Source: a virus. From it: a DNA stretch of 31,250 nucleotides. The position numbers and the translations under genes are program-made. The stretch covers positions 1-31,250 of IMG/VR virus record IMGVR_UViG_3300037847_000505; one strand, given 5' to 3'. The number at the start of each line of letters is the position of its first letter. Position 1 is the first letter of the stretch. The notes beneath the pieces were generated by a model. That model had not been told where the DNA came from. It worked only from the letters and a program-made list of their open reading frames with translations, and did no database searches. Shown here piece by piece: positions 713 to 29,547 of the stretch.

Positions 713-725
713 AATAAAGTAATAT

Positions 726-821: not shown

Positions 822-852
822 TACTTTTATCCGATTGGTTGTAAATTAGATA

Positions 853-917: not shown

Positions 918-942
918 AAATTATAAACACAAAGGTATAAAC

Positions 943-1569: not shown

Positions 1570-1582
1570 AAAAGGAGAGAGA

Positions 1583-1774
1583 ATGGAAAAATGTTTTTCA
1601 TTAGAAGAGATAAAATTTGCTGTCGATGTATCAGTAGGAGATGGTGGACACAAAGCCAAGCAAGTGTCTGAAGTATTAATATCAATATGGAATGAACGAG
1701 AAAGATTATTAGAATGCAAGATACAAGACGAACAATCAAAAGCATATGAGGAGAAGAGAATCAATGGCCTATAG
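1583..1774 (+). CDS. small early protein, unknown function
   Basis: A 63-residue protein, unrecognised. The start has a strong ribosome binding site (AAGGAG, 7 bases before ATG). The N-terminal part (CFSLEEIKFAVDV) and the C-terminal half (about residues 26-60, Glu/Arg/Lys rich) are predicted to be helical. The last 11 bases overlap the following gene. Two long open frames on the opposite strand across 1492-1779 are its antisense shadows. Confidence 0.6.
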   Translation: MEKCFSLEEIKFAVDVSVGDGGHKAKQVSEVLISIWNERERLLECKIQDEQSKAYEEKRINGL

Positions 1775-2168: not shown

Positions 2169-2941
2169 TGAAAGCAAATATACAAGACATAATGTTTCCT
2201 GTTAAAGAAATGCCAGCAAAACTAGGAAATAAAAAAGATACTGGATATAAATTTATTGTAAGAGAAGATACTGGAGATGTCTTATCTTGCATGACAGATA
2301 ATTACAGACTTATTAATAACTCTACAATCTTAGAGAAATCTGACAATATAATTAGTAAAGAAGGTGGTAATCTAAAAGAAGTTCAAACTTTTGGTAACGG
2401 AGCAAGAAGTATTGTAAAGTATGAGTTTGATAAGCATAAAATTACTATCAGTAATGGTGATATATGTACACCAGAAATAGTATGGTCAAATAGTTATGAT
2501 GGAACTGTTGGATTGAATATTATAGCAGGAGCATTCAGATTAGTATGCACAAATGGATTGGTAATTGGTGTTGTTGCTGATAAATACAAGAACAAACACA
2601 TCATACAAAACATGGACTTGCAAGATATTGAAGGTGTGATTGAAGAAACAATTAAGAAAACAAAACGAATTATGAAAGATGAGTTTCCTATTATTCATGG
2701 TACTAGAGTTCAGCAATCACATATTGTTGATATACTCAAGATGTTTCCATTACAATCATCAGATTACATTACTAATCTACTAATTGCAGAAAATCCTAAT
2801 AATCTATGGGACCTGCTAAATGTAGCAACTAATGTAGCAACTCATGGTATGGATAGAAAAGCAGAAGCTACACACAAGTTAGAAGCAAGAATCTATGCTA
2901 AGATATGCAAGATGGCAAAGGTACATATAGCTAGTGCCTAG
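2168..2941 (+). CDS. DUF932-like protein
   Basis: A 257-residue protein matching the general layout of DUF932 phage/plasmid proteins. It has YRLINNSTILEKSDNI near residues 47-62, a GARSIVKYEF strand, a NSYDGTVGLNIIAGAFRLVCTNGLVIG core (about residues 108-135), and a helical C-terminal half. Members occur widely in phages and plasmids beside replication and recombination genes, but their biochemical role is not settled. The start overlaps the preceding stop (TAATG) and its end overlaps the methyltransferase start by 8 bases. The family call rests on the VCTNG core and the flanking strands. Confidence 0.65.
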   Translation: MKANIQDIMFPVKEMPAKLGNKKDTGYKFIVREDTGDVLSCMTDNYRLINNSTILEKSDNIISKEGGNLKEVQTFGNGARSIVKYEFDKHKITISNGDICTPEIVWSNSYDGTVGLNIIAGAFRLVCTNGLVIGVVADKYKNKHIIQNMDLQDIEGVIEETIKKTKRIMKDEFPIIHGTRVQQSHIVDILKMFPLQSSDYITNLLIAENPNNLWDLLNVATNVATHGMDRKAEATHKLEARIYAKICKMAKVHIASA

Positions 2942-3776
2942 TCTAGATTGGTACGATTGCCCGATTGTACTTCCTTATTATGGGGGTAAATATGAGATGA
3001 GTAAAAAACTTATCCCTCTTTTGCCCCCTCATGAGAGGTATATAGAAGTGTTTGCAGGCGGTCTTTCTATGTTCTTTAGGAAGGCCAAAGCAAAATGGAA
3101 CGTACTTAATGATAAAGATAAGAACATTGTAAATCTTTACATGAGTGTTATCTTAAAAAGAAAAGAACTAATAGATAATTTATTTTGGATTCCCAAAAGT
3201 CGTGATTTATTCTTAGATTTCAAAGGAGAGATAAGAGATGAAAATTATACATTCGAGATACCTGACCCATTACAAGCTGCGAAGTATCTGTATTGTATAC
3301 GATATAGTTTTAATAAACTAATTCATACTCCATTCTCAATGAATAAAGATATGAACAAAAACTGGGAAGAAGAATTGACATATTCAAGAAAGTTTTTAGG
3401 TGGTGCAACAATAGAGAATTTAGATTTTGAAGAACTTATTGATAGGTATAATCCTAGAAAAGGTGATTTCTGGTATCTAGACCCTCCATATATTGTAGCA
3501 ACAGAGAAAGGCTCATATTATAATCATAGTTTTGATATGGAAGACCATGTAAGATTACGAGAATGTGTACAAAAAATTCATGATAATGGTGGATACTTTA
3601 TGGTAAGTTATGATTACAGAGAAGAAGTTGCTGATTTATATCAGGACTTTGATTGTAGAACTCTTGATTGGAAATATGTAGGAGCAACTGATGAAGCTAG
3701 ACAAAAAGGTAGAAAAGAATATGTTATAATAAATTATGAACCAACACAACAAATAAATATATTTAAGGAGGATTAA
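2934..3776 (+). CDS. dam: D12-class DNA adenine N6-methyltransferase
   Basis: A 280-residue enzyme that transfers a methyl group from S-adenosylmethionine to adenine N6 in a short DNA target. The N-terminal PYYGGK (residues 14-19) and IEVFAGG (37-43) form the cofactor site, and the catalytic DPPY is at residues 183-186 (YLDPPY). The start is a GTG at 2934. It is preferred over the first ATG (2995) because that ATG would remove the PYYGGK motif, although no good ribosome binding site is visible; coupling to the upstream gene (8-base overlap) probably supplies ribosomes. No restriction enzyme gene is nearby, so this is an orphan phage methylase, likely protecting the genome or marking it for replication or packaging. 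The recognition site cannot be predicted. Confidence 0.9.
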   Translation: MPSLDWYDCPIVLPYYGGKYEMSKKLIPLLPPHERYIEVFAGGLSMFFRKAKAKWNVLNDKDKNIVNLYMSVILKRKELIDNLFWIPKSRDLFLDFKGEIRDENYTFEIPDPLQAAKYLYCIRYSFNKLIHTPFSMNKDMNKNWEEELTYSRKFLGGATIENLDFEELIDRYNPRKGDFWYLDPPYIVATEKGSYYNHSFDMEDHVRLRECVQKIHDNGGYFMVSYDYREEVADLYQDFDCRTLDWKYVGATDEARQKGRKEYVIINYEPTQQINIFKED

Positions 3777-5095
3777 TGAACGAAGAGATAAAAGAAATAA
3801 AAACATTACCACACTCCGAAGATGCAGAAAAAGCTTTGCTTGGATGTATACTTAAAGGTGATGCAAGAGAGCAAGAGATTGCTATGGCTTGGGTAAGAAG
3901 TAATGAAGCATTCTATAATAATGATTGTAAAGATGTTTGGGTTGCATTCAAAGAATTGTACAGAGACCAAATAGATATAGACTTTATTACTTTATCAGAC
4001 AAAGTACAAGAAATGAGTGGTAAACAACTTGCATACTTTATGACTGGACTTACTGATTTTGCACCAAGCACTGCTAATGTTGAGAACTATGCAAAGATAA
4101 TATGGCAAAAGTACATACAAAGAGAAACTGCAAAGTCAGCAACTAAACTTGTAGATGCTAGTTATGATAATAATGGTAGTGTAAAAGAAATATTGAGTGA
4201 GCATAACAAACTTATTCAAGAACTAAAGAACATACAACCATCTAAGCAAGTAGATATGAACGTATTGATTGAAGACATGAAGAAAGTAATGGAAGAAGAT
4301 TCTAATCTAATACCATTTAACTTAGCACATCTTGATTCATTCGCAGGTGGTATGACTCGCAAAGAGATTACTGTTGTTGGAGGTAGACCCGGTCATGGTA
4401 AGACTACACTTATAATTAATATTATTCGTGGACTTATCTATCAGGGATACAATGTAATGCTATTTAATCGTGAGATGTCTAATACAGAAATGCTTAAAAA
4501 GATGGTAGTTATGGAAAGTAAAGGTCTTGAATATGGTCATGTTCGTAGAAATGAACTTAATGATGATAGTAAAGAAGAGTTTGAAATAACATCTGACTTT
4601 ATGAAAGAGAAGTACAGAAATCTAATAATGTATGATAACATACGAAGTCTAGATGATTGTCTAAGAGAAATATCTAAGCATAAACCAGATGTTGTTATTG
4701 ATGACTACATACAATTGATTCAAGTAGATGGTATTAAAGAAGGTAGACGATTCGAGATTGAAAAGATTATGCAAGAATACAAATGGATTTCTAAGTCTGA
4801 AGATTGTAGTGTTATCTTAGTATCTCAACTTAACAGAGAGATTGAGAAACGTATTGACCCTAGACCTAGAATGAGTGATTACGCAGAAAGTGGTGTAATT
4901 GAACAAACAGCAGAGTCTGCTATGTTTGTATTCTATGGACATAACTTTGATAGCGAAAGATATGACCAACACAAAAGTGAAATTATTGTAGCTAAAAGTA
5001 GATATGGTAGGATAGGTACACATCAAGTTGGATTTAATGGTAATCGTTGTAAATTCTACATGAATGATAAACTAGCGAAAGATGATTCAAAATAA
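3776..5095 (+). CDS. dnaB: replicative DnaB-type DNA helicase
   Basis: A 439-residue helicase that unwinds the phage replication fork using ATP. It has the DnaB N-terminal domain (SEDAEKALLGCIL near residues 14-26, which normally binds primase), a linker, and a RecA-like C-terminal domain. Walker A is GGRPGHGKTT (202-211), Walker B is VVIDDY (306-311) and the SVILVSQLNRE motif spans 345-355. The downstream arginine-containing segment PRMSDYAESGVIEQ matches the hexameric DnaB pattern. The length is typical. The start overlaps the methyltransferase stop (TAATG) and has AAGGAGG just upstream. No primase gene or fused primase domain is visible, so a separate primase should lie outside the window or be supplied by the host. 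Confidence 0.95.
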   Translation: MNEEIKEIKTLPHSEDAEKALLGCILKGDAREQEIAMAWVRSNEAFYNNDCKDVWVAFKELYRDQIDIDFITLSDKVQEMSGKQLAYFMTGLTDFAPSTANVENYAKIIWQKYIQRETAKSATKLVDASYDNNGSVKEILSEHNKLIQELKNIQPSKQVDMNVLIEDMKKVMEEDSNLIPFNLAHLDSFAGGMTRKEITVVGGRPGHGKTTLIINIIRGLIYQGYNVMLFNREMSNTEMLKKMVVMESKGLEYGHVRRNELNDDSKEEFEITSDFMKEKYRNLIMYDNIRSLDDCLREISKHKPDVVIDDYIQLIQVDGIKEGRRFEIEKIMQEYKWISKSEDCSVILVSQLNREIEKRIDPRPRMSDYAESGVIEQTAESAMFVFYGHNFDSERYDQHKSEIIVAKSRYGRIGTHQVGFNGNRCKFYMNDKLAKDDSK

Positions 5096-5384
5096 ATCTT
5101 GTAATGGCTGCTACTACGAACATGATAGGACCTGTTATTGGTTTGAACTTGTTAATGGTAGCAGTCCAAAGATAATACCTGATGATACATTTAATAAAGG
5201 ATGTAAGCAGTATAACAATACTACAATAGGTAATCAAACTATGGATGAGATAACTACTAAAGTAATTAATGTATTCAAAGGTGAGATAATAGGAGATAAA
5301 TATACTCCTACAAAATGGTCTGGTAATTACAAGAAGAAAACATATACTACAAGACACAAGTATACAGAAAGGAAAGACTTCTAA
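5082..5384 (+). CDS. Cys-rich small protein, possible zinc binder
   Basis: A 100-residue protein with a cysteine cluster at its N-terminus (CNGCYYEHDRTC, then GCKQY about 25 residues later), which could bind one zinc ion. The C-terminal half is basic and polar (KKKTYTTRHKY). Such small Cys-cluster proteins are common in phage replication operons and have no assigned job. The start overlaps the helicase end by 14 bases; the stop overlaps the resolvase start (TAATG). The position between helicase and resolvase suggests DNA metabolism, which is inference only. Confidence 0.65.
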   Translation: MIQNKSCNGCYYEHDRTCYWFELVNGSSPKIIPDDTFNKGCKQYNNTTIGNQTMDEITTKVINVFKGEIIGDKYTPTKWSGNYKKKTYTTRHKYTERKDF

Positions 5385-5911
5385 TGATTACTATAGGAAT
5401 AGACCCAGGTCGTAGTGGAGGAATTGTATTTGTAAATGGTGATACAATAATTGAAATGTATAAATGCCCAAAAACTATAGAAGAGATGGCAGAAATATTA
5501 GAACCATACAGAATGACATGGGAAACTACAACACCAATTACAGCATACATTGAGCAAGTACACGCATTCCCAACTGATGCTCGTAGCAGTGCATTTAAAT
5601 TCGGTACTAACTATGGGATTTGGCAGGGTCTGCTAGCAGCTAATAAGATAGAAACAAAGTTCATTGCTCCACAAGTATGGATGAAGTCATTAGAGTTACC
5701 AAAAGATAAAGTAAGTAGAAAAAAAGAAATAAAAATAATTGCGCAAAGAGTAATTGATAAACAAGACTTACTAAAAAAGAAAGTAACACTACATACTGCT
5801 GATGCTGTTCTTATAGGAATGTTTGGAGTTTTAAAAACTGCATTAGATAATATGAATTTAAAAGATAAAATTAATACATTAACTAAATTAAAGAAGAGAG
5901 GAAATAAATGA
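5384..5911 (+). CDS. ruvC: RuvC-type Holliday junction resolvase
   Basis: A 175-residue nuclease of the RNase H-like RuvC family that would cut four-way DNA junctions made during recombination and replication, freeing concatemers for packaging. The acidic catalytic set is present: D7 in the opening strand (IGIDPGRSGG), E57 in YIEQVH, and D140 in HTADAVLIG. The length and motif order match phage RuvC-like proteins. There are no ruvA or ruvB genes nearby, as usual for phages. The start forms TAATG with the preceding stop and has AAAGGA upstream. Confidence 0.85.
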   Translation: MITIGIDPGRSGGIVFVNGDTIIEMYKCPKTIEEMAEILEPYRMTWETTTPITAYIEQVHAFPTDARSSAFKFGTNYGIWQGLLAANKIETKFIAPQVWMKSLELPKDKVSRKKEIKIIAQRVIDKQDLLKKKVTLHTADAVLIGMFGVLKTALDNMNLKDKINTLTKLKKRGNK

Positions 5912-6102
5912 TATTACAAAAGTCTAAAAAAGAAATAGATAATTTTATAATAACAATGAATAATGTAGAATCAACATTAAAAATTTTATCTAATAGTCAA
6001 GAAACAGATTCAGCAATTAAAATACTTACCGAACTTGTAAGTGTAACTGAATTACTTGTTGAGATATTAGAACAAAGAAAAGAAGAAACTTTTACCGCAT
6101 GA
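5908..6102 (+). CDS. small helical protein, unknown function
   Basis: A 64-residue protein that was not recognised. It appears to be two helices with regular hydrophobic spacing (STLKILSNS; SVTELLVEILEQ), possibly a helical hairpin or a dimerising coiled coil. It is the last gene of the rightward block, overlapping the resolvase stop by four bases (ATGA), and ends 22 bases before the hairpin at the convergent junction. It could modulate the resolvase, but that is only position-based. Confidence 0.6.
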   Translation: MILQKSKKEIDNFIITMNNVESTLKILSNSQETDSAIKILTELVSVTELLVEILEQRKEETFTA

Positions 6103-6123: not shown

Positions 6124-6157
6124 GAATGAGCAGGTACTATCTCTTGCCTGCTCGTTC
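6124..6157. terminator. hairpin at the convergent gene junction
   Basis: An 11-bp stem pairs 6124-6134 with 6147-6157 (one G-U pair, perfect GAGCAGG/CCTGCTC core) around a 12-base loop. It lies between the end of the rightward block (6102) and the last codons of the leftward late block (stop at 6137-6139, inside the loop). A shared bidirectional terminator is the natural reading, but neither side is followed by a clean T tract, so termination may be weak or Rho-aided. It may instead protect the 3' ends of the mRNAs. Confidence 0.5.
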
Positions 6158-9079
6158 TAATTCTCTTAATGAATTTTGTATATCAACTGGTAATCCAGAA
6201 TACTTTTTCTTTTTAAGTCTACCTTTTTCTTCAAGTTTGTCAAAGTAATAATCTTTAATAAATTTATTCTCTGATTTCCTTAATGGTTCTTCTAACAAAT
6301 CTCTATATAATGAACCTTGTTCTTTATTAGTAGGATAGAATGTCATCTCTTGAAAAGCAGCTGCTCCTAAACCATAAGGTGTTTTAACAGTCATTGGTAC
6401 ATATCTATCATATGTTCTACCTGCCATTTGATTAATAAGTCTTATGTATTGACCCATCATATCGCTTGAACTTAAATCTTTATTTGCTAATCCAAAGTCT
6501 CCAGCAGTAATAAGTATGTTATCTAAGTATTCACTATCAGCATTAATTAATTCTGTTGCTATACCTATATCAAAGATAGTACCAAATGTAGGACCTAACT
6601 TAGAACCAATAAGACCCTTACCATAAAACTCTTTGTTAAGTTTTTCTAATTGTTCTGGGTCATCATAATCAGTAAATAATATATGATATAAATCTTCTAG
6701 TATTTCTTTACCAGTGTGTTCAACAAGTGTTTGATTATATCCTGCTATATAACTAAGAAGAGCAGGTGCTAAGAAATATGCTGTTGATACATTCATCATT
6801 TTATGTACGCCTCTAGCATCTTTTAACCAATTAGAAAAATTATCTTCACCTAATGCAGACAAGTCTCCTTTAAATTCTTTATATATAGAGTAATTTCTTT
6901 CAAGAAATTCCATACCATAATGTTGAAACTGAAACATAAATTGACCAATACCTTCTCTCATATTCTTTGCTTTAGCATATGCATTATAATCAAAATGATT
7001 TAATATAACCATATTCTTTGCATAAGCTCTCATCATATCTCTTCTCATTTTATTTTTAACAGATTGAACAGTTCCTTTACCAGTCTTTTCAACTTGTTCT
7101 TCTGCTAGTTTTGTTAGATATTTTTGAAACTTTGGCTTCTTAGTTAGTTTATGCACTTGAGCAAATGCAATCTCAGCAGTTAATTTTCTATTCTTATTTT
7201 CTACTGCTCTATGCATACCAGAACTCCAATTAGCAAGTTTGCTCATGTTGCTTCCAAATATTTTTACTCCTTTATATAAAAAGTTTTCTTCATCGGAATA
7301 AACTATCTTACCATTCTCATCCATTCTTCTTACTTTGTGAGACCTTGCTGATTCAGGACTTATACCTGATTCTATTAATGCTTCTGATGTCTCCATAAAT
7401 AAGTTTTCTTTTCTTAAAAACTCATCTAAATCTAAACCTAATACATCACTAGCTTTATTTTCTTTTAAATATGCTCTTGAATCTTGAACTGCTCTATATC
7501 CAAATGTTGCATAGTTCATTAAATACTGAGTAGCATTTCTAGCTGCTGACCTTACACTAAATCCTAATTTATTTGTAAACTGATATGATAGTAATGCTTT
7601 TTTTAATTCATGAAGAGAACCAGAATTTTGTATCTCACCATTAACAGAACCATACAAACTATTAATCATATCAACTATTTTAGATGAGTATTCATTTTCT
7701 TTTGTATACATACTCTTAGCTTCTGTTAGTGATTCGATAAAACTTTTCTTAAGAAATGCTTGAGTATTAAATTTATTTACATCATTAATATATGTTTGAA
7801 CTACATCAATAAAATTCATGCTGTAGTCTTTATTCTTATCATCTCTAGCTTTAGCATAACTAGGTAATGCAACTGATATATTATCTATAATATCTTCTAT
7901 TGATTTACCAGTATGTTTCATATCTATACTGGTATCATCTAGTTCATCAAAATGCTTCATCATATTATCCATCATCTGAGCATTTAATTGCCTAGTAAAA
8001 TGAGGAAAGTATCCATCTTCTTTATACTTAGGCATTAACTCGCCTTGCATTTTATCTTTTAATTCTTTTAACTTAGTTATGCTTGTAGCAAATCCTTTTC
8101 TATTCTCTAATTTTTTTATGTGTACATCTATCTTAGCATTAATACCTGCTCTAAGAACTGAATAAGAATCAGTCATTAAATTATTATAATCAATTAATGA
8201 TTGAGTTATATCTTCTGGCATATTTAATTGTCTAAAATATTTTAAAGATTCATCATCTGTAAGTCTTACTAATTTTGTACCATTGTCGTATTCTTTAATT
8301 CTTTCTCTAGCTTCTTTTATTACTTTTCTTTCTTTACGTTTAATACCTTTAAGGTCTTGCAGACTTCCATCTTCATTTATTCTAGCAATAATTCTTTCAT
8401 CATTATACTTTGCTAATATTGCTTTTGGCATTTTAGTTTCAATAATATCTATAAATTCTGTAAATGTTTTAACAGAACCATCTCTCTCAAACTTTGTTAA
8501 TATTTCATACTTTTCATCTATATCTTTTTGAACACCACTATCTAATGCTTTAATATAATCTAATTCTAATTGTCTATGTTTTTTTAATGATGCATTTAAT
8601 CTTCTTTCGCTAAATATACCACCAACATCTGAAGAACCTCTTAATCCATCTATTATTTTTTTAAATTTAAGATTTAAATCGCTACTTCTTTTTTTATCAC
8701 TATCTACTACTTCTCTGATTGATTTAATAGTTTTAGCAAGAACAGGGTCTCTTTTACCAAGTACAGTTCCCACCATAAATCCTTCAGCAACTTCAAACTC
8801 ACTAAACTTACCACTATCAACTCTCTTAGCATAACTATATAAATCTTTTATAAATGCATTTATGTTGCCTCTAGTTAAAAATGCTCCACCTTGAGCATCA
8901 CTAAGTAATACTGCATAATCCATTGGTATATGAAATCTAGATTCAAACATTGACATCGCTGCTTGATAAGGAGCTTGTATATTCTTATTTACTATTTCAG
9001 TATCTGCCCATTTACTAATAGAGTTCCAAAGTTTTAATGCTTTCTTATTATTTATATTATCGCAACTTACTACTGACAT
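6137..9079 (-). CDS. large putative ejected virion protein (980 aa)
   Basis: A 980-residue protein, mostly helical and charged, probably an internal virion/ejection protein that enters the host with the DNA. The C-terminal half has features of large polyvalent phage proteins: a VRSAARNATQYLMNYA segment, a GQFMFQFQHYGMEFLERNY segment, and hydrophobic stretches (AYFLAPALLSYIAG; LIGSKLGPTFGTIFDIG) that could insert in membranes. No catalytic motif was recognised. It is the last gene of the late block and starts inside the end of the 2909-residue gene (10-base overlap). The ATG is preceded by GGGAGAG about 8 bases away, so independent initiation is possible. A TTTAAAA slippery heptamer at the overlap could instead fuse the two by a -1 shift. 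Confidence 0.7.
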   Translation of the reverse strand: MSVVSCDNINNKKALKLWNSISKWADTEIVNKNIQAPYQAAMSMFESRFHIPMDYAVLLSDAQGGAFLTRGNINAFIKDLYSYAKRVDSGKFSEFEVAEGFMVGTVLGKRDPVLAKTIKSIREVVDSDKKRSSDLNLKFKKIIDGLRGSSDVGGIFSERRLNASLKKHRQLELDYIKALDSGVQKDIDEKYEILTKFERDGSVKTFTEFIDIIETKMPKAILAKYNDERIIARINEDGSLQDLKGIKRKERKVIKEARERIKEYDNGTKLVRLTDDESLKYFRQLNMPEDITQSLIDYNNLMTDSYSVLRAGINAKIDVHIKKLENRKGFATSITKLKELKDKMQGELMPKYKEDGYFPHFTRQLNAQMMDNMMKHFDELDDTSIDMKHTGKSIEDIIDNISVALPSYAKARDDKNKDYSMNFIDVVQTYINDVNKFNTQAFLKKSFIESLTEAKSMYTKENEYSSKIVDMINSLYGSVNGEIQNSGSLHELKKALLSYQFTNKLGFSVRSAARNATQYLMNYATFGYRAVQDSRAYLKENKASDVLGLDLDEFLRKENLFMETSEALIESGISPESARSHKVRRMDENGKIVYSDEENFLYKGVKIFGSNMSKLANWSSGMHRAVENKNRKLTAEIAFAQVHKLTKKPKFQKYLTKLAEEQVEKTGKGTVQSVKNKMRRDMMRAYAKNMVILNHFDYNAYAKAKNMREGIGQFMFQFQHYGMEFLERNYSIYKEFKGDLSALGEDNFSNWLKDARGVHKMMNVSTAYFLAPALLSYIAGYNQTLVEHTGKEILEDLYHILFTDYDDPEQLEKLNKEFYGKGLIGSKLGPTFGTIFDIGIATELINADSEYLDNILITAGDFGLANKDLSSSDMMGQYIRLINQMAGRTYDRYVPMTVKTPYGLGAAAFQEMTFYPTNKEQGSLYRDLLEEPLRKSENKFIKDYYFDKLEEKGRLKKKKYSGLPVDIQNSLRELERAGKR

Positions 9080-12000
9080 TTTAAATACTCTCCCATCTTA
9101 TTAAATACTTCATATCCACTATCTTTTAATGGATTCTGTCTCGCTGCCGTATGTAATGCATTATTTGCTTCACTAACTACCTTTAACATATTTATTGCTT
9201 TATTAGGAGACTTAGCCTGCTTTGGTTCATACTTTAAAAACTCCATGTGAGCATACATAGGATTGTTTTTTATATTATCAGGTAACATATTATCACCTGC
9301 TATATTATATATATCTTTTCTCATCATATCTAAAAAGTCTTTATCTAATGACATTCTTAAATGAGCATATTTAATTGGATTTAAATAATCTTGTCTAGCA
9401 GAAAACTCTTCTAAGTCATTTAATCTTTGTAAAAAATCTTGGTATTTTTCTGCATTTGCATCTGGAATTAAGTCTGCATAATCAGAGTACATTCTCATAA
9501 CAGATTTATTAATTGTTGATAATGGATTGTTTGGAAGCATTTCTTTAGTCCAACTAAAATCACTAGAGTTTTCATTTAATCTCATTCTAGTATTCTTATC
9601 AAACCCCATTATTCCAAATCTTTCATGGTTTAAATTATTAAAATCTATTAATGATGTATCTTTATTAAAGAATATTCTGTAATGATTATTGCCTTCCATA
9701 ATTGATTTCAATACAAATTCAGATACTTTCTGTCCTCTTTGTTTTACAGATTCATCTTTAGCAAATTCAATATTACCTCTTGCAAACCCTGTAAGTAATT
9801 GTATTCCCTGTTTATATCTAGCAGTTTCTTTGTATGGAATAGATATTGGCCTATTATTAAATACTCCTATATCATCTTTGTTTCTTCTAGGTTCCATGTA
9901 TGCATAAAGAAAATTTAACTTATGTTTTTCAACCATTTTAGTTAAGTATTGATTTCTTAAATCTGAAATTGTTGATATGTTAGGTCTATATTCTCTAATC
10001 ATTTTCATTAAGTCTTCATTATCAACTAATGTTCTATCTTTAAATGCTAATACTTCATCTATTAATGCGCCTTTACCATACTCTAGTCTATTAAAATCAA
10101 GTATAGTCTTCATGTCTTTTCTAGCTTCATCACCCAATGTATCATACCAACTATCATAGTTCATACCATAACCAAATCCTCTTAGTAAGGAATCCATTGT
10201 ATTTGCATGAACAACGCTATCTACTAAATCAGAATTAGATTCTATAGATACATAGTTTTTATACTTTAAATCTTTTGTATGTAATTTATTTTTTGGAACT
10301 TTATATTGATTTTGTAACTTATCTTTCATCTTATTAATTACCCAATCAATACTTTTTACTTTAGATTGTTTCCATTTTTCTGGATACTTACTTCTTCTAA
10401 TATAATTTTTGTTTTTATCTAATCTTTTTATAGTAGCAATGATGCTATTAAATTGTTGAGTATCACTTTTAATACCTTTAGTTAATCTATCCAATGAAGA
10501 TTCAAAATCATCTAATTCTGCTTGAGACATTTCCTGTGTTTCTATAGTAGTGTTTCCATCATCGTCAGTCTTTATTTGACCAGGCTCTATAGCAATTAAA
10601 GATTTAAACCAATTATCCATTACCATATGATTAGCTGTCGTCATATGATATTCTCTTTTATTATCTAAAAATTCTTTATCTGCTATTTTTACTGCAATTC
10701 TATCTAAATAATTACCGCCCTGACCTTGAGCAATATTCTGTATCCTACTTTTAGTCTTATTAAAGAAGTCATTTTCTGGATTAATTAAATCATCTAAATA
10801 TTTACTATTTGCTTTATCTAAATCTTTTCTCTTCCAAGACTTAGGAAAGAAGTGTCTATTTAATGACTTATATATATCTTCATGAAACTCTTTAAATGCT
10901 TTACTACCGATAGCCATATCATAAAAACTTGTTTTTCTTTTCTGTCCACCTTCGTAAGTATCATCTCCAAAAGAAGCTAGTAATTTATTTTGTTGATTTA
11001 AAAATTCTTTAATAACTAGTTTATCTGCTTCATTCAAAGCTACTTCTCTATATATACCATCACTATCTAGCTTAAACCTTTGAAAGATTCTTATTCTTCT
11101 TCCATCTCCATTTCTACCCCTAGCATATATTTCTCTAGAATCTTGCGCATCTGCATTCTTAGGACTTAATGAGTTATCTAAATCAGGAAATAAAAATTTA
11201 TCAGACCATTCATATAAATTATTACCAAGTTTCTTATTAAATTTGTTTGCTCCATCAATAACATATTGAACTTCTAAAGCAGCCCTTTGAAAGTAAGAAA
11301 GTGATTCTGTATCCATTGTAATTATTTCAGTATTATTACCATCGTTATCTTTACCTGCTTCATATAAAACTCCAGGTCCTACTAATTCACCATTGACATT
11401 TTGCCTTATTATATTTCTCCACTTTCTATCATTTAATTTGTTTATCTTATCTTGTTCTGATTCATATGTTAAATGACTTATATCAGTTAAGTTTTGTAAA
11501 TAATTAAGTTTTCTATGTGTTTTTTGTACAATACCTATTCCTTTTTTAAATGCTATAGCGTTACCTATTTTAGACAGAACTGTATTTCTTGATGTAGTTG
11601 CATCTAAAGCAAATGTAAACTCTGAGCCTTCTTGAAGTTTAGATATATCAACACCTTGAACAAAGTGAGCATCGTTTCTTTTTATATAATCAAACATATA
11701 ATCACTATGTGCAAAAAAGTAATCTACTTTATCAGCATCGTAATCACCTTCATATATATTAGCAATATCATAACTATTTATCTCTACTGCTAGTCCAGTA
11801 TCTTTATCTAAAAATCCTTTCAGTCCCAGTAAAGTAATATCATTAGGTCTTGTTCTTGGGTTTCTTCTAGATATGATTCCTAATTGGTATCTACTTTTAA
11901 TACCTTCTTTATTTAAATCTTTATTATACTTTAATAAAACTCCATGAATAGCTTCTAATGTCATTGCATTATCAAATTGTTTGTCAAACTCTTTATCAAA

Positions 12001-15000
12001 CTCTTTGTTATTATATTGCTCTATCTTTTTTAAATCTTGTTTAAACTCTTCAATAGTAAATACTGCTTCGTTATTTACAATACGTATTTTCTTTCTACCT
12101 AACTTAGTTAAATCAGATTCTCTTTCTGCATCAGGCAGCATTATTTCACCCCTGAGAATCATCTTTCTATCTTTATTAAATAAAGTTGGTAGTAATCTGG
12201 TTTTTAATTTTCCACCTTGATGAGCTCCAGCAGTTTGTACAAGAGGTCCTTGACCACCATATCTAAAAGCATCTTGTTTGTCTTGCGAATATACATGATT
12301 TACTATTGCTCTTCTATTGCTAAATATATTATCAATATATACTTTAGATAAATACTTGTTTACTTGAGCAGAACTATAATCATTAGGGTTAGCACTTCTA
12401 TCTAATTGTAAAAAGTATACAAAGTTACTAAGATTTTTTAATGCTCCATCTTCTGCATCGTCAGGTATATTACCTTTGTTTAATTGCTCTAACATAAAAC
12501 TTCTTAACTTAAATGAATCTGATTTAATATTATCCATATAAGTAAGACTAGCATCTAGTTCATCTACCATCTCTCTAAAAGCTGCTTCATGTTCTCTTCT
12601 ATTCATATAGTTATAATCTGCATCTGATTCACTAGCAGATATTCTAACAGCTTCTTTTTCTGGTCTTAATCCTATACCATCTAAATCTATTTCTTTTACA
12701 AGATTTGAATATGTTTGACCACTTTTTTGACCAATTTGAAAATCATTTAATTCACTCCATCTAGTATCTCTTATAATAGATATATCTGTTCCTTCTTTAT
12801 CTGCCTTAACATCATATGCTTTAGCTCCACTTTTAGTAAGTAGAACATCAACAGGATTATTTTTAAAAAACTTACTTAAGGAAGGACTGTAAACAAATAA
12901 TGTTTTACCATATAATAATGTTTTACCTTCGCCTTGAGATGATATAACAGGTTTTATTGGACTTTTAGAGTTAGGACTATGACCCATAATAGTATGCATT
13001 TCCATCATCATATCTTTAGATAAAAATGATATACTATCAAAAGCTGAAACATCTGCGTGAGCTTCACCTATAGTATGCTTTGTACTAAAATTTTCTAACT
13101 CAGGATATTGGTCTTTGTATTCTGTAATAACATCATCTATTAAAGTAGACATTGTTTCAGTACCTTCGTCATCCCATACTGCTATTCTATATTTACCTTT
13201 ATGTTTTTCTAATCTATTTTTTAATACTTGTGTAGATTTTTTATCACCATTTTTTACTATTTCTTTTGCATCTATTAATGCTTCGTAAAATGTTTTATCT
13301 GACCTAATAAAGTTTTTAGTTGTAGCAAGTTTCATTCTTTTAAGATATGTATCTACATTCTTTGCTGAATTTTCATTTAATACTCTGTAAAATACTTCAT
13401 TGTCTTTACTTCTATACGCTGCTTCATAAATTAAAAACCTAGTAGCTAACTCAATATTTTCACCTGTGTAATCGTAATCTTGTTTTGCATTTTTAAATTC
13501 TTTTACAAGTTTCTTTACTTGTCTTTTAACATTTGCATTATCTATTTTTGAAATATGGTCTTTACTAAACCTTATAAAATCTTGAGCAATCTTAGATGAA
13601 CTACTTCTGTCTATAACTATGCTATCTAATCCATCAAATATATCTAACTTAAGCATTCCTCCTTTATTGCCTTTATCAGCAATTTGTATATTGTCTTGAG
13701 ATAGAGCGCTTAAATTTTTATTAAGTAAATTATTACCTAAATAGTTTTGTACTTGACCTCGTAAGAATAATATGTGTGATTTTTGATTATCACTTAATCC
13801 TTGTGTGCTTAATATATTATATGACTTTTCTGTTACATATCTACCAAACTCTGTATATACTACATTGTTATCAAATATACCATAATCAAGACCAAGAGAT
13901 TCTAATTTATCAAATATAGGATTACCTTGCATTACTTCCCTAGAAGTAGCATCATCATTATAAATTACTTCACCATTAACAATAGATACTTTCTTAACAG
14001 ATTTTCTTTTTAATACACCTCTTACTACTTGTGTTAAATCTTGTATTACTTTATCTTGGTCTTTACCATCCATGTCATCAAACTTAATATCATCTTTTAC
14101 AAGAGTTTTTGCAACATTAATTAAGTTTGCTTTAGGAACTTTATTACCTAAGTCATCTAAAATAAAATCTAATCCTTTTAAATGGTCAGATTTCCATTCA
14201 GAACTTTGGTCTCTATAATCTATAAAATCTCCTTCTCCATCTATGACTTCATTAAAAAATTTATATTTTCTAAAAAATTCATCAACGCCCATTGAAGGAG
14301 TTACATCTTCATCTAATGCTTTTTCTTGATACCTAAGTTTAATTTTCTCTCTTTCTTTTATTTCATTTTCAACATAATGATTAACACCTTGACCATCTAA
14401 ATTATCTATAATAGGATTTAATGCTTCTTTAAAATCTTTACTAATATCTGATTGTAAATCTAATATCTTTTGTCTTTCTTCTTCTGTCTTTGCTTCACCT
14501 AATTCATTATTTAATTTTTCAATTGTAAACTTTTTGTTTACTTCTAAATTACCATCAGCATTTCTATCAATAATACCCTGTCTTTTTAACATAGAAAGTA
14601 TTCTTATCTGCCCTCTCTTACCAAATACTTGCATATATGCTAACATTCTATTCTTAGGACTTTCTAATCCACTATTTGTTAATGCTCTAAATAGGTTTTC
14701 CATACCCATATTTTCATTAGCTGTTGCAACATTATAAATAGAATCATATAAAAATTTTACTTCTTCTACTTGAACCCCAGTTAATACTCTTACTTTATCT
14801 GATATATTAACAACTCCAGATTCTTTATCTAACTCGTTAATTTTTTTATTATATTCATTCTGAAAGTCTCTATCTTCAGGAGCATCTATTTTATTTAATG
14901 TAAATCCTCTTAATCCACCTTCTCCTAATAAACCTCTTTCACTAAGTAATGAATTACCTGATTGTTGTACAATAAAATCTATGTCAGCTTGAGATGCAAC

Positions 15001-17799
15001 GGAATCTTTTAATCTTTTATTACTTATATCGTTCAATAACATTTGATATAAGAATTTTGTATTAGGGTCATTGAATCTAGACAAATCAATACCTGAGTCT
15101 AGCATACTAGATTTAAGCCTTGAAATATTACCAGTTTCGACCTTTTTATTAATTGCTGTACTTGTAGGGTCAAACTCACCTAATGCTACTAATACGTTGT
15201 GAAGTTTAGTTAAATCATCAAACTTTGTTTTATATTCTTCATCTACTTTAATCTTAGATACATCATCTATAATTTTTAACTCACCATCTACTTTTTGCAA
15301 AATGCCTACATCAAATAAAGCAGTCTTCAATTTATCTGTCATGTTGTTTCTTTGAAGATTAGACATAACATTTTTAGTATATTTTTTACCTTCGTTGTGT
15401 ATTACTGGCATTAAATAAGAATGAACATCTGAAAATCTAAATTCTGCTCTTGAATCTTTTGGGTCTACAGATGATTGTATTGCTTTTTCAGAATCTCTTA
15501 CAATATTATATACATCTTTTAATGTATCAGAAGAATTAATTGTTGTGCCTTCATTACTTAATTTTGCTGATTTAGAATCAATAGCCATAGTAGAACGTAT
15601 AACTGTATCTAAACTCCTAAATGCATTACGTATTTCTTCTACTGCTTTTTCTCCATCTTTATCTGAAAGCCATTCTTTAAATTCACCATCTCTTGCTCTA
15701 TCAAGCAACTTAGTATTTATTTCTATAATTTTAGGTATAGACATTTGCTTACTACTTGTATCGCTAGTAATACCAAAATCTTCAAACTCTGCTTTTTCTA
15801 TATTTCTTAATACACTAACTAGACTTTCTTTCATTGTAGTAGTTGATTCAGCAATTCTATCTTCATATGCTTTATCAAAATCATCTAGTGTTTTAAAACC
15901 TTGCTTTTCTAATATGTTTATTATTTCATTTGCTTGTCGTTCAGATATTTGGTCTTTAGGTATTTTATATTTAAAGTCTTGACTTAGTAATCCATAAACA
16001 TATTCCATTCTACCGTTATGAGGGTCAATAGGATTACCATTTACATCTTCATAAAATACTCTTTCATCTTCTGCAAGTCTACCTGATTCTACAGATTCAT
16101 CTTCATCACTAACAATACGTTCATCTTTTAAATACTTAGAAAGTCTTTCATTATCTCTTGCTAATCCAACTCCAAACATATTTGTATTACTAGTAAATGT
16201 AGTACCAAAGACTGTATTCTTAGTATCAACTCCAACAAATTCTAATGTAGACCTAAGTTCTTGTATTCTTTTACCTAAGTCTACTTCTCTTGCAAAGTTA
16301 CCTCTACGTTGTGTCCAAGCACCAATTAATACACTAGATATATAATCTTCTGCTCTTAATTCATTACCAGTGGCGTATGCTTGTACTCCTTGTGTGCCTG
16401 CCATCGCTGCTCCAGCTACAAACATTCTAGGGAATATTAATCTATAGTTTTGCATACCCTCTCTAGTTGCTTCTGCTAACATCTCTCTTCCATATATTTT
16501 CTTTTGAGACATTAACCAATTTATTGATTTAGTTCTAGCGTCTTTTTCGCCAAGTTCATCTATTAATTTAGCAGTAATTCTTTTAATATTTGTCTTATGG
16601 CTTTGATTGTCAGATTCTAATAAATCTTGACTTTTCTTTACACCATCTAAATTCTTATAATCAAAACTAGTAGAAAAAGCATTTTTTCTATTGTTATTTG
16701 CTATACCAACCATACTATTAACAATGTTTTCTAATGGTTCATTTTCATACATTTTTCTACTTGTTAAGTATGTTCTTAATCCTTGTGCAAAATCTGTTCT
16801 TGATTTTAACATCTTACCTAAAGGTTTAAATGGAGCTGTAGCTGCGTTAATTGCTGTACCTGCTAAGAAACCTGTTGCTACTGAATATCCTACCTGACCT
16901 AAGTTAAATTCTTCTTGCTCTCCTTTTAACATTTGTTGAGATTGAAACGATGCATCCATCACTGCATCAGATACAGAGAATACAAATGCATCATGCAATG
17001 CTTCTGTAGCAAATCTACCAAATCTAGTATTACCATATTTAGTTCTAGCAAACTGAGATATGTTTTGTAGTGGTACACCTCTGCTTGCTACTTGCTCTCC
17101 CATCTCTAATATTGCATCATATTGAGATTGAGTTATTTCTTTTCTTGCAAGTTTTCTATTAGCACTCTTTGATAGGTTTGCAAAGAAACCAGTTGTTGTA
17201 TCTGTAAACGCTTCATTAGCAAGTTTATTTTTAGCACTCGCAGATATAGTAGAACCAGTTACTACATTACCAAACTCATTTGCTAACTTTGATTCTATAC
17301 CACTTTTAACAGCTGCTTTTTTTATATCAGCAGTTGCTTTACCAATTGTTTGTCCTTTAGTTGCTTTAGCTATTAAAGCAGTAGCAGGTTTTTGTAAAAG
17401 TTTACCAGTTAATTTTAATGGAGCTCCAAGTAAAAATCCAGCTCCTGTACCTACACCACCTAATATAGCTGCTAGCGAACTATCTTCTTGGTATTTTCTC
17501 ATAGACTCTTGAAAGTCTAATTCTTCTCCTAACGCTTTTTCTACACCTATTTCTCCAAGACCTAATAAACCAAATGATGCAGATTCACCAAACTCATATA
17601 AACCTGCTCCTAATGCTTGAAATAAAGATACTTTATCTTTTTTAATTCTATCTTCAGTTTCTTGTTCTGTTTCTCCAGTTATTCTACGAACAGGTCTCTG
17701 ACCTAATCTATCTGAAGTAAAAGTAAAAGGGTCTGTAGAATTTTGTTGTTGCTCTTTTCTAAGTTTTAATAGAGCTTCTATTGCTTCTTGAGTAGGCAT
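9070..17799 (-). CDS. giant virion protein with putative two-barrel RNA polymerase core
   Basis: A 2909-residue protein that appears to be an ejection protein joined to an RNA polymerase. The N-terminal third has Gly/Ala-rich hydrophobic segments (about residues 109-128, 303-325, 458-476) like those of phage ejection proteins. Around residues 1974-2025 the order IISRRNPRTRPNDITLLG, then GDYDADKV (D2019, D2021, D2023) parallels the second double-psi barrel of cellular beta-prime (NRAPTLHR, then NADFDGD) and of RNAi polymerases (RNP...PGDI, then DxDGD). The three Asp would hold catalytic magnesium; Gly is replaced by Ala in DxDGD. Upstream, residues 1588-1663 (FDSISFLS; KPVISS; LLYGK with K1632; SGAK with K1660) fit the first barrel with its two lysines. 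No T7-like or N4-like polymerase motifs were seen. There is no clear Shine-Dalgarno; the start follows the upstream stop by six bases. Polymerase identity is inferred from motifs, not from a search. Confidence 0.7.
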   Translation of the reverse strand: MPTQEAIEALLKLRKEQQQNSTDPFTFTSDRLGQRPVRRITGETEQETEDRIKKDKVSLFQALGAGLYEFGESASFGLLGLGEIGVEKALGEELDFQESMRKYQEDSSLAAILGGVGTGAGFLLGAPLKLTGKLLQKPATALIAKATKGQTIGKATADIKKAAVKSGIESKLANEFGNVVTGSTISASAKNKLANEAFTDTTTGFFANLSKSANRKLARKEITQSQYDAILEMGEQVASRGVPLQNISQFARTKYGNTRFGRFATEALHDAFVFSVSDAVMDASFQSQQMLKGEQEEFNLGQVGYSVATGFLAGTAINAATAPFKPLGKMLKSRTDFAQGLRTYLTSRKMYENEPLENIVNSMVGIANNNRKNAFSTSFDYKNLDGVKKSQDLLESDNQSHKTNIKRITAKLIDELGEKDARTKSINWLMSQKKIYGREMLAEATREGMQNYRLIFPRMFVAGAAMAGTQGVQAYATGNELRAEDYISSVLIGAWTQRRGNFAREVDLGKRIQELRSTLEFVGVDTKNTVFGTTFTSNTNMFGVGLARDNERLSKYLKDERIVSDEDESVESGRLAEDERVFYEDVNGNPIDPHNGRMEYVYGLLSQDFKYKIPKDQISERQANEIINILEKQGFKTLDDFDKAYEDRIAESTTTMKESLVSVLRNIEKAEFEDFGITSDTSSKQMSIPKIIEINTKLLDRARDGEFKEWLSDKDGEKAVEEIRNAFRSLDTVIRSTMAIDSKSAKLSNEGTTINSSDTLKDVYNIVRDSEKAIQSSVDPKDSRAEFRFSDVHSYLMPVIHNEGKKYTKNVMSNLQRNNMTDKLKTALFDVGILQKVDGELKIIDDVSKIKVDEEYKTKFDDLTKLHNVLVALGEFDPTSTAINKKVETGNISRLKSSMLDSGIDLSRFNDPNTKFLYQMLLNDISNKRLKDSVASQADIDFIVQQSGNSLLSERGLLGEGGLRGFTLNKIDAPEDRDFQNEYNKKINELDKESGVVNISDKVRVLTGVQVEEVKFLYDSIYNVATANENMGMENLFRALTNSGLESPKNRMLAYMQVFGKRGQIRILSMLKRQGIIDRNADGNLEVNKKFTIEKLNNELGEAKTEEERQKILDLQSDISKDFKEALNPIIDNLDGQGVNHYVENEIKEREKIKLRYQEKALDEDVTPSMGVDEFFRKYKFFNEVIDGEGDFIDYRDQSSEWKSDHLKGLDFILDDLGNKVPKANLINVAKTLVKDDIKFDDMDGKDQDKVIQDLTQVVRGVLKRKSVKKVSIVNGEVIYNDDATSREVMQGNPIFDKLESLGLDYGIFDNNVVYTEFGRYVTEKSYNILSTQGLSDNQKSHILFLRGQVQNYLGNNLLNKNLSALSQDNIQIADKGNKGGMLKLDIFDGLDSIVIDRSSSSKIAQDFIRFSKDHISKIDNANVKRQVKKLVKEFKNAKQDYDYTGENIELATRFLIYEAAYRSKDNEVFYRVLNENSAKNVDTYLKRMKLATTKNFIRSDKTFYEALIDAKEIVKNGDKKSTQVLKNRLEKHKGKYRIAVWDDEGTETMSTLIDDVITEYKDQYPELENFSTKHTIGEAHADVSAFDSISFLSKDMMMEMHTIMGHSPNSKSPIKPVISSQGEGKTLLYGKTLFVYSPSLSKFFKNNPVDVLLTKSGAKAYDVKADKEGTDISIIRDTRWSELNDFQIGQKSGQTYSNLVKEIDLDGIGLRPEKEAVRISASESDADYNYMNRREHEAAFREMVDELDASLTYMDNIKSDSFKLRSFMLEQLNKGNIPDDAEDGALKNLSNFVYFLQLDRSANPNDYSSAQVNKYLSKVYIDNIFSNRRAIVNHVYSQDKQDAFRYGGQGPLVQTAGAHQGGKLKTRLLPTLFNKDRKMILRGEIMLPDAERESDLTKLGRKKIRIVNNEAVFTIEEFKQDLKKIEQYNNKEFDKEFDKQFDNAMTLEAIHGVLLKYNKDLNKEGIKSRYQLGIISRRNPRTRPNDITLLGLKGFLDKDTGLAVEINSYDIANIYEGDYDADKVDYFFAHSDYMFDYIKRNDAHFVQGVDISKLQEGSEFTFALDATTSRNTVLSKIGNAIAFKKGIGIVQKTHRKLNYLQNLTDISHLTYESEQDKINKLNDRKWRNIIRQNVNGELVGPGVLYEAGKDNDGNNTEIITMDTESLSYFQRAALEVQYVIDGANKFNKKLGNNLYEWSDKFLFPDLDNSLSPKNADAQDSREIYARGRNGDGRRIRIFQRFKLDSDGIYREVALNEADKLVIKEFLNQQNKLLASFGDDTYEGGQKRKTSFYDMAIGSKAFKEFHEDIYKSLNRHFFPKSWKRKDLDKANSKYLDDLINPENDFFNKTKSRIQNIAQGQGGNYLDRIAVKIADKEFLDNKREYHMTTANHMVMDNWFKSLIAIEPGQIKTDDDGNTTIETQEMSQAELDDFESSLDRLTKGIKSDTQQFNSIIATIKRLDKNKNYIRRSKYPEKWKQSKVKSIDWVINKMKDKLQNQYKVPKNKLHTKDLKYKNYVSIESNSDLVDSVVHANTMDSLLRGFGYGMNYDSWYDTLGDEARKDMKTILDFNRLEYGKGALIDEVLAFKDRTLVDNEDLMKMIREYRPNISTISDLRNQYLTKMVEKHKLNFLYAYMEPRRNKDDIGVFNNRPISIPYKETARYKQGIQLLTGFARGNIEFAKDESVKQRGQKVSEFVLKSIMEGNNHYRIFFNKDTSLIDFNNLNHERFGIMGFDKNTRMRLNENSSDFSWTKEMLPNNPLSTINKSVMRMYSDYADLIPDANAEKYQDFLQRLNDLEEFSARQDYLNPIKYAHLRMSLDKDFLDMMRKDIYNIAGDNMLPDNIKNNPMYAHMEFLKYEPKQAKSPNKAINMLKVVSEANNALHTAARQNPLKDSGYEVFNKMGEYLKCQ
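9079..9085 (-). other. candidate -1 frameshift site TTTAAAA
   Basis: On the minus strand the giant gene ends tat-tta-aaa-tgt-cag-tag, giving the heptamer T_TTA_AAA in the zero frame, with the canonical X_XXY_YYZ register. A -1 slip continues as ATG-TCA-GTA, exactly the frame of the 980-residue protein, whose ATG immediately follows the heptamer in the shifted frame. A GGGAGAG lies a few bases upstream, where an internal Shine-Dalgarno is known to stimulate -1 slippage (as in dnaX) but would equally start the downstream gene. No strong downstream hairpin was identified. Confidence 0.4.
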
Positions 17800-17805: not shown

Positions 17806-18837
17806 TTAATTACCAAATTTATCTGTGTAATCTTCTAGTGTAATAGGCGGTTTACCTTCCGATGCTAATTGTTCATTTATAGAAATTAATTCTTGTTCTG
17901 AAGGAATCATTCCTATTCTATATAAAGATTGTATCATTAATTCATTTCGTAAGGCATTTTTATCTTGACCTTTAGTTTTTAAATTTTTATTTACAATATC
18001 TAATATTTGAGAATTTAATGCTCCAGATTCAAATGATTGGTCAAAAGATTGATTTCTCATTAATGCAATATTATTTATTTCTAAGTTATTAACAGCAACA
18101 TTAAGTTCAGTTTCAAATTGTTTTACTAAATCTTTTTTAGCATTTAAATCATCATATAATCTATTCATTGATTCAAATAATGGTTTAAATGATTGTTCAG
18201 ACCTTTCACCTTTATTTACTAACATTTGATATGAAGCTATTCCTGTTATTAAGCCTGGGTATTGCTCTACTATTTTACCAAGAAACTTAGCTTGTTTTTT
18301 ATCTTTAGCATGTCTTGAAATATTATTTTTTACTTCTTGTATATCTTTACCTTCAAACTCTCCATCAATTGTATAATCTCTAGTTGCTCTAAATAATGCA
18401 TTCATTCCTACATTTCTTTTAAAATCATCTACAATATCTTGTTTATTGCTTACACTTTTTAATTTTATAGCAGCTGTTAAATTATCTAATTCTGTTTGTT
18501 TAATTGTATTATATCTTGTTTCAGCAATTAACTCAGCATTTCTAGCTTCAGCTTCTAATTTTCTTTTTTGTAATGAAATATATTCTGGAGATGATTCTCT
18601 TCTTTCTTTTTCTAAAGCAAGTTCAGCAGATTGTAATTGTTTACTAAATAGTTTAGAAGTTCTTTCTTCATCTGCTCTTCTCATTCTCATCATTTCATTC
18701 TGTCTAGCATTCTCTAATTGTTGTTGTCTTAATCTTGTAGCCATGTCCATCATAGATAAAGACCTATCAATCTTCTGACGTTCTCTTTCTTGTTTATATT
18801 TTAATAATGAGTTTAATGATTGTAATGCTTGTGACAT
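17806..18837 (-). CDS. coiled-coil internal virion protein candidate
   Basis: A 343-residue, highly charged, almost entirely helical protein. Residues about 1-120 are a long Gln/Arg/Glu-rich coiled coil (RLRQQQLENARQNEMMRMRR; LALEKERRESSPEY). The rest is helical with a C-terminal segment ending DYTDKFGN. It is unrecognised by family. Its position, just upstream of the giant protein and in a row with two other helical proteins, matches the internal-core/ejection protein set of podoviruses (analogous to T7 gp14, gp15 and gp16), where such proteins form a channel across the cell envelope. That role is inferred from context. The start is four bases after the preceding stop, with no clear ribosome binding site. 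Confidence 0.6.
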   Translation of the reverse strand: MSQALQSLNSLLKYKQERERQKIDRSLSMMDMATRLRQQQLENARQNEMMRMRRADEERTSKLFSKQLQSAELALEKERRESSPEYISLQKRKLEAEARNAELIAETRYNTIKQTELDNLTAAIKLKSVSNKQDIVDDFKRNVGMNALFRATRDYTIDGEFEGKDIQEVKNNISRHAKDKKQAKFLGKIVEQYPGLITGIASYQMLVNKGERSEQSFKPLFESMNRLYDDLNAKKDLVKQFETELNVAVNNLEINNIALMRNQSFDQSFESGALNSQILDIVNKNLKTKGQDKNALRNELMIQSLYRIGMIPSEQELISINEQLASEGKPPITLEDYTDKFGN

Positions 18838-18841
18838 AATA

Positions 18842-19339
18842 TTATCCGAATATACCTAGATATTTTGATTGAGATTGTTGGTCTGCTAACTTTCTTTGCA
18901 TATCTAATTGTTCTTTTTGAGATTGCATTTCAAATTTTGTTTTTTCAAAATCAGATAATATTGAAGCTAAATTTTTAGTAAGACCAATATCTAAGTCTTC
19001 CATTTTAGTAGTATATGCACTTCTTATATTTTTAATCATATCGTTATCCATAGACATACTAGCAAAACCAGTTGCTTTACTTATTGCATCTTGTTGTTTT
19101 CTAGCTTGCATAATATTTTGTTGTCCACTACTAGAAACTATATCTGAAGCTCTTCTTCCCTCAAGAACTGCTGATTGCAAACTTGGATTAAGAGTTTTAT
19201 TAAATGCATCTTGAGCTTGTCTCATTTTTGATGAAGCATCCTTTAAATAATCTGATTGTATTTTTCCTTGTTCTCTAGCTGAACTAGTGTTACTTATAGA
19301 CTCTAATAAACTTAATCCTGCCATTACATATTCTATCAT
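18842..19339 (-). CDS. small internal virion protein candidate
   Basis: A 165-residue helical protein. A short hydrophobic N-terminus (YVMAGLSLLESI) is followed by Ser/Ala/Gln-rich amphipathic helices (SAREQGKIQSDYLKDASSKM; KKLA-type segments near the end) and a YLGIFG C-terminus. This pattern resembles the small gp14-like internal virion proteins of podoviruses, which are ejected first and sit in the outer membrane; the similarity is in style, not a proven family match. It is three bases downstream of the next upstream gene's stop, and AGGT lies before the ATG. Confidence 0.55.
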   Translation of the reverse strand: MIEYVMAGLSLLESISNTSSAREQGKIQSDYLKDASSKMRQAQDAFNKTLNPSLQSAVLEGRRASDIVSSSGQQNIMQARKQQDAISKATGFASMSMDNDMIKNIRSAYTTKMEDLDIGLTKNLASILSDFEKTKFEMQSQKEQLDMQRKLADQQSQSKYLGIFG

Positions 19340-19342
19340 ACT

Positions 19343-20518
19343 TTACCTACTTACAAAATCTTTAATAAAACTAATTGAATCTTTATCTTGTATTTCTAAT
19401 TGACCTCTTAAATTTGCTCCCTTAAAATCATCACCAAAAAATACATCTAATTCTGGATTATAAACTTTAGATAATAAATCTTTTAATTCTTGTTCTCTTT
19501 CAGACACTAAAGATGAAAATTTTTCTTTATTTCTTTTATCATATTTAGGAAGTCCTTTTAAGTTTTTTCTTGCTATTTTTAAATCTTTTATTTTGTCAGA
19601 CAAAACATCAGCAGTTATTTTTCTAGTTTCTTTTGTATTTTGGAAATTAGCTTTAGCATATCTTTCTGATATTGATTCAGTAGGTTCGTCTATAGGTTGA
19701 GACATTGTATAATCACCGCCAGTTATTTCTCCTCCTAATAAAAAACTTGCTAAATTATTATTTTCAATTAATTCAGGAGCTAATGGACCTCTAGTAAAAT
19801 TTGGTTCTAAAGGACTACCTATTTCACTTTCAACAATTATTTCATTAATATTCTTTTCAGTAGTATCTTCTTTAATTAAAGGTTTGTCTACACTATCTTG
19901 CAATGATTCTATATCTGTATCTTTTCCGTATATAGATGAAAAATCTTTAGTAAGAGTTGGCATTCCTTCTGAGCCTAATTGTAATGATGATTGTAATGTT
20001 GGAGATTTACTATCTAAAGGTTCTCCTTCCATAAATCTATCTAATAAATCTGTTTGTTTTAATGCTTTTGCTTTTTCTCCCATAGCAGCTACATCATATT
20101 TACTACCTAATACATTCTCACCTAACATATATTGTTCTTTCTCTTCAGTTAAATAAGAAGTTAAAGAACCTTTTTTTCCTTTTAATACATCCATTAATGA
20201 TGCTCTATTAGGATTTTCTACAACACTTACACCACCTGCTTTACGAACTGCATCAGGTAATGATTCTTCAAATGCTTTTATATTAGATTCTAATTCTGCT
20301 TTTTGTTTTAATCCTTCTCCAAATGTAGATGCTAATTCTAATCCAGAAGCGGCTGTAGCAAACATTGTTTCTTTTTGTTTTGCTTCTAAATCTGCCATCT
20401 TTGATGAAAAATCAGCTTGTTGTAACAAACTTTCTACATTTGCTAATTGTTGAGATACACCTCTTTCAGCAGATGATTTAGACCTAATTGCTGATTTTAT
20501 TTGTGCTGCTGTTGCCAT
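19343..20518 (-). CDS. helical structural protein, internal virion candidate
   Basis: A 391-residue protein that was not recognised. It opens with an Ala/Ser/Gln-rich amphipathic helix (MATAAQIKSAIRSKSSAERG), then a coiled-coil region to about residue 85, a central polar and probably disordered part (about 150-270), and a Lys/Arg-rich helical segment (KIKDLKIARKNLKGL, about 310-325). It is the first of three consecutive helical proteins before the giant gene, so a core or ejection protein is likely. It follows a 62-base AT-rich gap, the longest non-coding interval among the large late genes. No strong ribosome binding site is visible. Confidence 0.55.
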   Translation of the reverse strand: MATAAQIKSAIRSKSSAERGVSQQLANVESLLQQADFSSKMADLEAKQKETMFATAASGLELASTFGEGLKQKAELESNIKAFEESLPDAVRKAGGVSVVENPNRASLMDVLKGKKGSLTSYLTEEKEQYMLGENVLGSKYDVAAMGEKAKALKQTDLLDRFMEGEPLDSKSPTLQSSLQLGSEGMPTLTKDFSSIYGKDTDIESLQDSVDKPLIKEDTTEKNINEIIVESEIGSPLEPNFTRGPLAPELIENNNLASFLLGGEITGGDYTMSQPIDEPTESISERYAKANFQNTKETRKITADVLSDKIKDLKIARKNLKGLPKYDKRNKEKFSSLVSEREQELKDLLSKVYNPELDVFFGDDFKGANLRGQLEIQDKDSISFIKDFVSR

Positions 20519-29545: not shown

Positions 29546-29547
29546 TT

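Follow-up and report, generated by a model that had tools for sequence, protein, structure and literature searches.

The stretch of DNA analysed here (the window) is a virus record of 31,250 bases that carries a giant open reading frame (ORF) flanked by virion-type and replication-type genes. Replication-type genes occupy the plus strand from position 1 to 6100 and include a D12-class DNA adenine methyltransferase, a DnaB helicase and a short ORF that, by eye, has a RuvC-like look. The remainder, from 6137 onwards, has its main genes on the minus strand; their products are proteins of 980 and 2909 aa, three smaller ones, a 1205-aa fibre-like protein and one of 994 aa. The giant ORF (9070..17799, minus strand) encodes the 2909-aa protein, in which an RNA polymerase core is predicted. 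Directly downstream of it, in fixed synteny, lies the 980-aa ORF (6137..9079, minus strand), which gave no Pfam match above the cut-off and is probably a second cargo or ejection protein. Three ORFs of 343, 165 and 391 aa (17806..20518, minus strand) stand between the tail-fibre gene and the giant gene and, judging by their position, are probably virion proteins.

Other features of the window include a DUF932 protein encoded within the replication block (2168-2941, plus strand; E 1.1e-16), for which a similar ORF is present in the relative G001. Two adjoining small Lys-rich ORFs with the motif CKxGWKKMGYKSMSDCxSYGKKK (27525-28024, minus strand) appear to form a duplicated cassette, and several small ORFs at 28762-30443 (minus strand), each with one hydrophobic N-terminal segment, may encode lysis or membrane proteins.

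Gene order and phage lineage

Gene order is identical in the 34 contigs that retain flanks, running from fibre genes through two to three small ORFs to the giant chain (always a single chain, 2817-3003 aa), the counterpart of the 980-aa ORF (about 900-1030 aa, and 603 aa in one contig, where it is perhaps cut by the contig end) and convergent genes, which match the RuvC-like, helicase and methyltransferase ORFs in size where the contig reaches them. The giant gene thereby sits between the tail genes and a convergent replication block. The polymerase gene of phage phi14:2 occupies the same place, adjoining tail or cargo genes at the junction with a convergent replication block, and according to the phi14:2 record the polymerase and neighbouring large proteins were detected in virions by mass spectrometry. 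No shared early-promoter words rose above shuffles, and a search for a T7-like RNA polymerase found none, but it also found none in the control genomes, so that absence does not follow.

Longer relatives of the window encode a terminase (phrog_38) and a portal protein (phrog_156). The capsid protein of one relative (L225:3054-4583, minus strand) matches SU10_MCP with an E-value of 1.2e-14, and PHROGs gives it no family. Because of the terminase, portal and SU10_MCP-type capsid matches, these uncultured phages are probably short-tailed. As far as phmmer can tell, they do not look like Crassvirales, because the ORFs of five long contigs have no phmmer similarity to bases 30000-99000 (~69 kb) of phi14:2; Crassvirales are also absent among the best TerL matches listed. 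The 1205-aa fibre-like protein (20581-24198, minus strand), whose C-terminus is very Gly-rich, matches tail fibres of Bacteroides and Salinibacter phages over residues 284-524 (33-36% identity for the best matches), and these matches hint at a host among the Bacteroidota.

Homologues and residue conservation

Three successive scans of viral contigs yielded 26, 43 and 70 loci with homologues of the 2909-aa protein, and a fourth scan added four more distant loci (L211, L220, L221, L222); among 84,980 cellular genomes scanned there was no homologue, and no annotated phage record matched. With HMMER, neither the protein nor its profile retrieved anything useful from Pfam, PHROGs, PDB sequences or phage records. 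When the window protein and 70 homologues are aligned over their full length (71 sequences), K1632 (context LLYGKTLF) and K1660 (context KSGAKAYD) are invariant throughout (71/71), and D2019, D2021 and D2023 are invariant in 70/70, one fragment ending before them. The fourth loop residue, at the Gly position of DxDGD, varies (Ala 62, Val 5, Phe 2, Tyr 1), and Lys 2024 is replaced in 2 of the 70. The alignment has 82 near-invariant columns over its full length, and more than half are concentrated in residues 1488-2239. K1616, K1632, K1660 and the Asp triad also remain invariant when the most distant relatives, at 27-33% identity, are included (a set of 53 members).

The original prediction, which was made from the window alone, had placed GIISRRNPRTRPNDI at residues 1974-1988 (11836..11880, minus strand) and the metal-binding loop GDYDADKV at residues 2018-2025 (11725..11748, minus strand), 30 residues apart, and this is exactly what the translation reads; these motifs are well beyond chance. 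It had also named K1632 and K1660 as the two lysines of the first barrel, and both are invariant, but a third, K1616, is equally conserved and falls on a lysine present in 69 of 70 crAss-like enzymes. The span that it gave for the core, 11695-13038 (residues 1588-2035), lies inside the core, but the conserved catalytic region is larger, extending over at least residues 1440-2240.

Profile comparison with crAss-like virion polymerases

A query profile of 52 members (residues 1440-2300) was compared by hhalign with a target profile of 70 crAss-like polymerases, the family of phi14:2 gp66. The match (probability 94, E 1.1e-7, score 76.4) is one colinear alignment of 413 columns that runs from before the first barrel, across both barrels and through the metal-binding loop, while 100 column shuffles reach at most 24.6 and other regions of the 2909-aa protein score 17-19. 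Each barrel region alone also aligns at the matching place, residues 1440-1760 with a score of 46.3 and residues 1760-2110 with 41.0, the latter value having been obtained with a deeper alignment, as the second barrel was not above shuffles with a shallow one.

The residue pairs of this alignment point to a first double-psi barrel (DPBB-B like, approximately residues 1588-1720; 12640..13038, minus strand), in which D1588, K1616, K1632 and K1660 are all invariant, and a second (DPBB-A like, approximately residues 1848-2028; 11716..12258, minus strand), which is also placed by the structural model. In the first barrel, D1588, K1616 and K1660 fall on gp66 D962, K1012 and K1065, within the span (residues 1588-1663) that the original prediction had matched to this barrel, and K1632 is one residue off K1027. 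In the second, D2019/D2021/D2023/K2024 align on D1361/D1363/D1365/K1366, and R1979 and P1981, within GIISRRNPRTRPNDI, align on R1322 and P1324, both invariant in crAss-like enzymes. Across the 70 crAss-like sequences, K1065 and R1322 are present in 70/70, and K1012 and I1364 in 69/70. The last of these, Ile, stands at the Gly position of DxDGD; the Ala found there in the window protein had been considered unusual, and it is ordinary because crAss-like enzymes, including gp66, carry Ile at this position.

Detectable sequence similarity to the crAss polymerases is confined to approximately residues 1500-2032, and hhalign found no homology between the rest of the 2909-aa protein and the N- or C-terminal parts of crAss polymerases. 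YonO and P23-45 gp96 and gp64, used as single-sequence hhalign targets, gave no match, which is a weak test, as a single gp66 sequence was also unmatched.

Predicted structure

The core (residues 1440-2300; 10900..13482, minus strand) was modelled with AF2 from the alignment of this family alone. With the deeper alignment the model reached a mean pLDDT of 85.3 and a pTM of 0.86, and it replaced a poor earlier model built from 23 close homologues (pLDDT 47). The top Foldseek match in the PDB is 6VR4, the phi14:2 virion polymerase (E 2.3e-9, probability 1.00), followed by three QDE-1 structures and then by RDR2 and phage multisubunit polymerases; a viral library returned two close relatives and many crAss-like phage proteins. 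The alignment to 6VR4 comprises 789 columns with a low global TM-score (0.32 by query length), and the catalytic loop, residues 2018-2022, is below pLDDT 50 in the model. A 38-residue helix (residues 2067-2104; 11488..11601, minus strand), which follows the second barrel in the modelled secondary structure, is a candidate bridge helix.

The closest relative found is the crAss-like enzyme, by profile and by fold. The two-barrel RNA polymerase core of the original prediction is thus upheld by the hhalign match to gp66, by the fold matches to 6VR4 and QDE-1 and by the conserved triad and lysines; absence of a barrel, or variation of the residues in homologues, had been named as evidence that would count against it, and as far as the tools reached the prediction survived this check, since the model matches 6VR4 and QDE-1 and the three Asp and two Lys are invariant. 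Among the comparisons then suggested, crAss-like gp66 and RDR gave matches, but YonO, available as a single-sequence target only, did not.

A probable virion polymerase

From the profile and model evidence, we call the middle of the 2909-aa protein a divergent two-barrel, single-chain RNA polymerase of the crAss/QDE-1 type, which would group with crAss-like virion polymerases and RNAi polymerases in one clade. The first double-psi barrel would supply the conserved lysines and the second D2019/D2021/D2023, which would bind the catalytic Mg2+. Because of its fixed place in the tail block, its N-terminal hydrophobic stretches and the reported behaviour of its crAss-like homologue, the polymerase is most likely packaged and ejected and would act on early genes. 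For the phi14:2 enzyme, a review (PMC10136315) reports early transcription that resists rifampicin as well as activity in vitro; packaging in the virion (PMC10136315, PMC7886860) and translocation from it (PMC7886860) have also been reported. As a virion-type polymerase lies inside the giant protein, each phage probably delivers a transcription enzyme of its own to the cell. The enzyme would be made late with the tail proteins, be packaged in the capsid, reach the host cell by way of the short tail, together with the DNA or before it, and then transcribe the early (replication) genes without the host polymerase. Hydropathy marks a hydrophobic Gly/Ala-rich stretch at residues 106-130 (17410..17484, minus strand) as a candidate membrane-interacting segment, and many members have similar stretches of moderate strength within their N-terminal 500 residues, with no single fixed place across all of them. 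These first ~500 residues probably aid crossing of, or residence in, the envelope. We give the reading as a whole, that of a single-chain two-barrel DNA-dependent RNA polymerase that is packaged, ejected and transcribes early genes, a probability of about 80%.

An active two-barrel polymerase that is made in the cell, serves middle or late genes and is never packaged seems to us unlikely. Some phage two-barrel polymerases, such as YonO and P23-45 gp64, are indeed non-virion enzymes (PMC10770324, PMC5467207); however, in the contigs with flanks the gene described here belongs to the tail/virion block, where it follows the fibre genes and converges on the replication genes. The nearest relative of its product is a virion enzyme, and the size and N-terminal hydrophobic stretches of the protein are cargo-like, unlike the compact YonO and gp64. 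It is more improbable still that polymerase activity was lost and the barrels were kept to serve an ejection protein as a scaffold or for nucleic-acid binding: the variable fourth loop position and the occasional replacement of Lys 2024 would suit such a history, but without catalysis selection is unlikely to have kept all six residues (three Asp, three Lys) unchanged in relatives as distant as 27-33% identity, and the fourth position is Ile in the active gp66. That a structural protein with a DxDxD motif resembles these polymerases by chance is scarcely credible, as the lack of HMMER matches to Pfam, PHROGs and PDB sequences is outweighed by the profile-profile alignment, the shuffle controls and the fold search.

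Relation to known polymerases

The N4 virion RNA polymerase is likewise giant, and the 2909-aa protein would share with it carriage in the virion and use in early transcription, whereas the N4 enzyme is T7-like, with a palm fold that bears no relation to the double-psi barrel. The phi14:2 polymerase (KC821624 gp077, 2180 aa) likewise has two barrels in one chain and in the same order, with an Asp triad followed by Lys, conserved barrel lysines and an RxP motif upstream of the triad. The likeness is visible only by profiles and fold, however, and the 2909-aa protein has ~650 more residues ahead of the catalytic motif (2019 vs 1361); the contigs that carry it are at most 54 kb, and pairwise comparison of these phages with ~69 kb of phi14:2 detected no similarity. 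The RNAi polymerases QDE-1 and RDR (PDB 7y7q, 7w84), the second-best fold match, are also single chains with two barrels, but they are eukaryotic, non-virion and more weakly matched. In P23-45 gp96, too, a two-barrel polymerase is fused into a giant virion protein (PMC10770324), with the difference that it forms the N-terminus of a tape measure protein of 5002 aa and that the phage is long-tailed. YonO of SPbeta-like phages is a single-chain two-barrel polymerase with an Asp triad as well (PMC5467207), but it is compact (~100 kDa) and carries DxDGD. The very large size of the protein that contains the core had been thought unusual; crAss polymerases reach ~6000 aa (PMC10136315), and P23-45 gp96 has 5002 aa (PMC10770324), so it is not.

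Giant and fused two-barrel virion polymerases are thus already known. The novelty lies in the lineage: the polymerase family, for which the literature searched gave no description, occurs in phages whose capsid protein is SU10-like and which, as far as the comparisons reached, stand outside Crassvirales. Coupling of transcription to genome entry has been proposed for fused virion polymerases (PMC10770324), and such coupling would fit the 2909-aa polymerase too. A more specific picture is tentative and somewhat doubtful: the enzymes would form a lineage of RNAi-polymerase-like virion polymerases, undescribed so far and lying outside Crassvirales, whose chain always includes a membrane-active ejection domain, so that the enzyme, placed at the entry pore, would link transcription to entry of the genome of a small phage.

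Through this family, virion-type two-barrel polymerases reach into a second phage lineage, one that is apparently unrelated and that annotation libraries miss entirely. For work on how RNAi polymerases and single-chain RNA polymerases arose, it offers a further family that is both conserved and model-ready. If the enzyme is indeed ejected, early transcription that does without the host enzyme would be commoner among environmental phages than annotation suggests.
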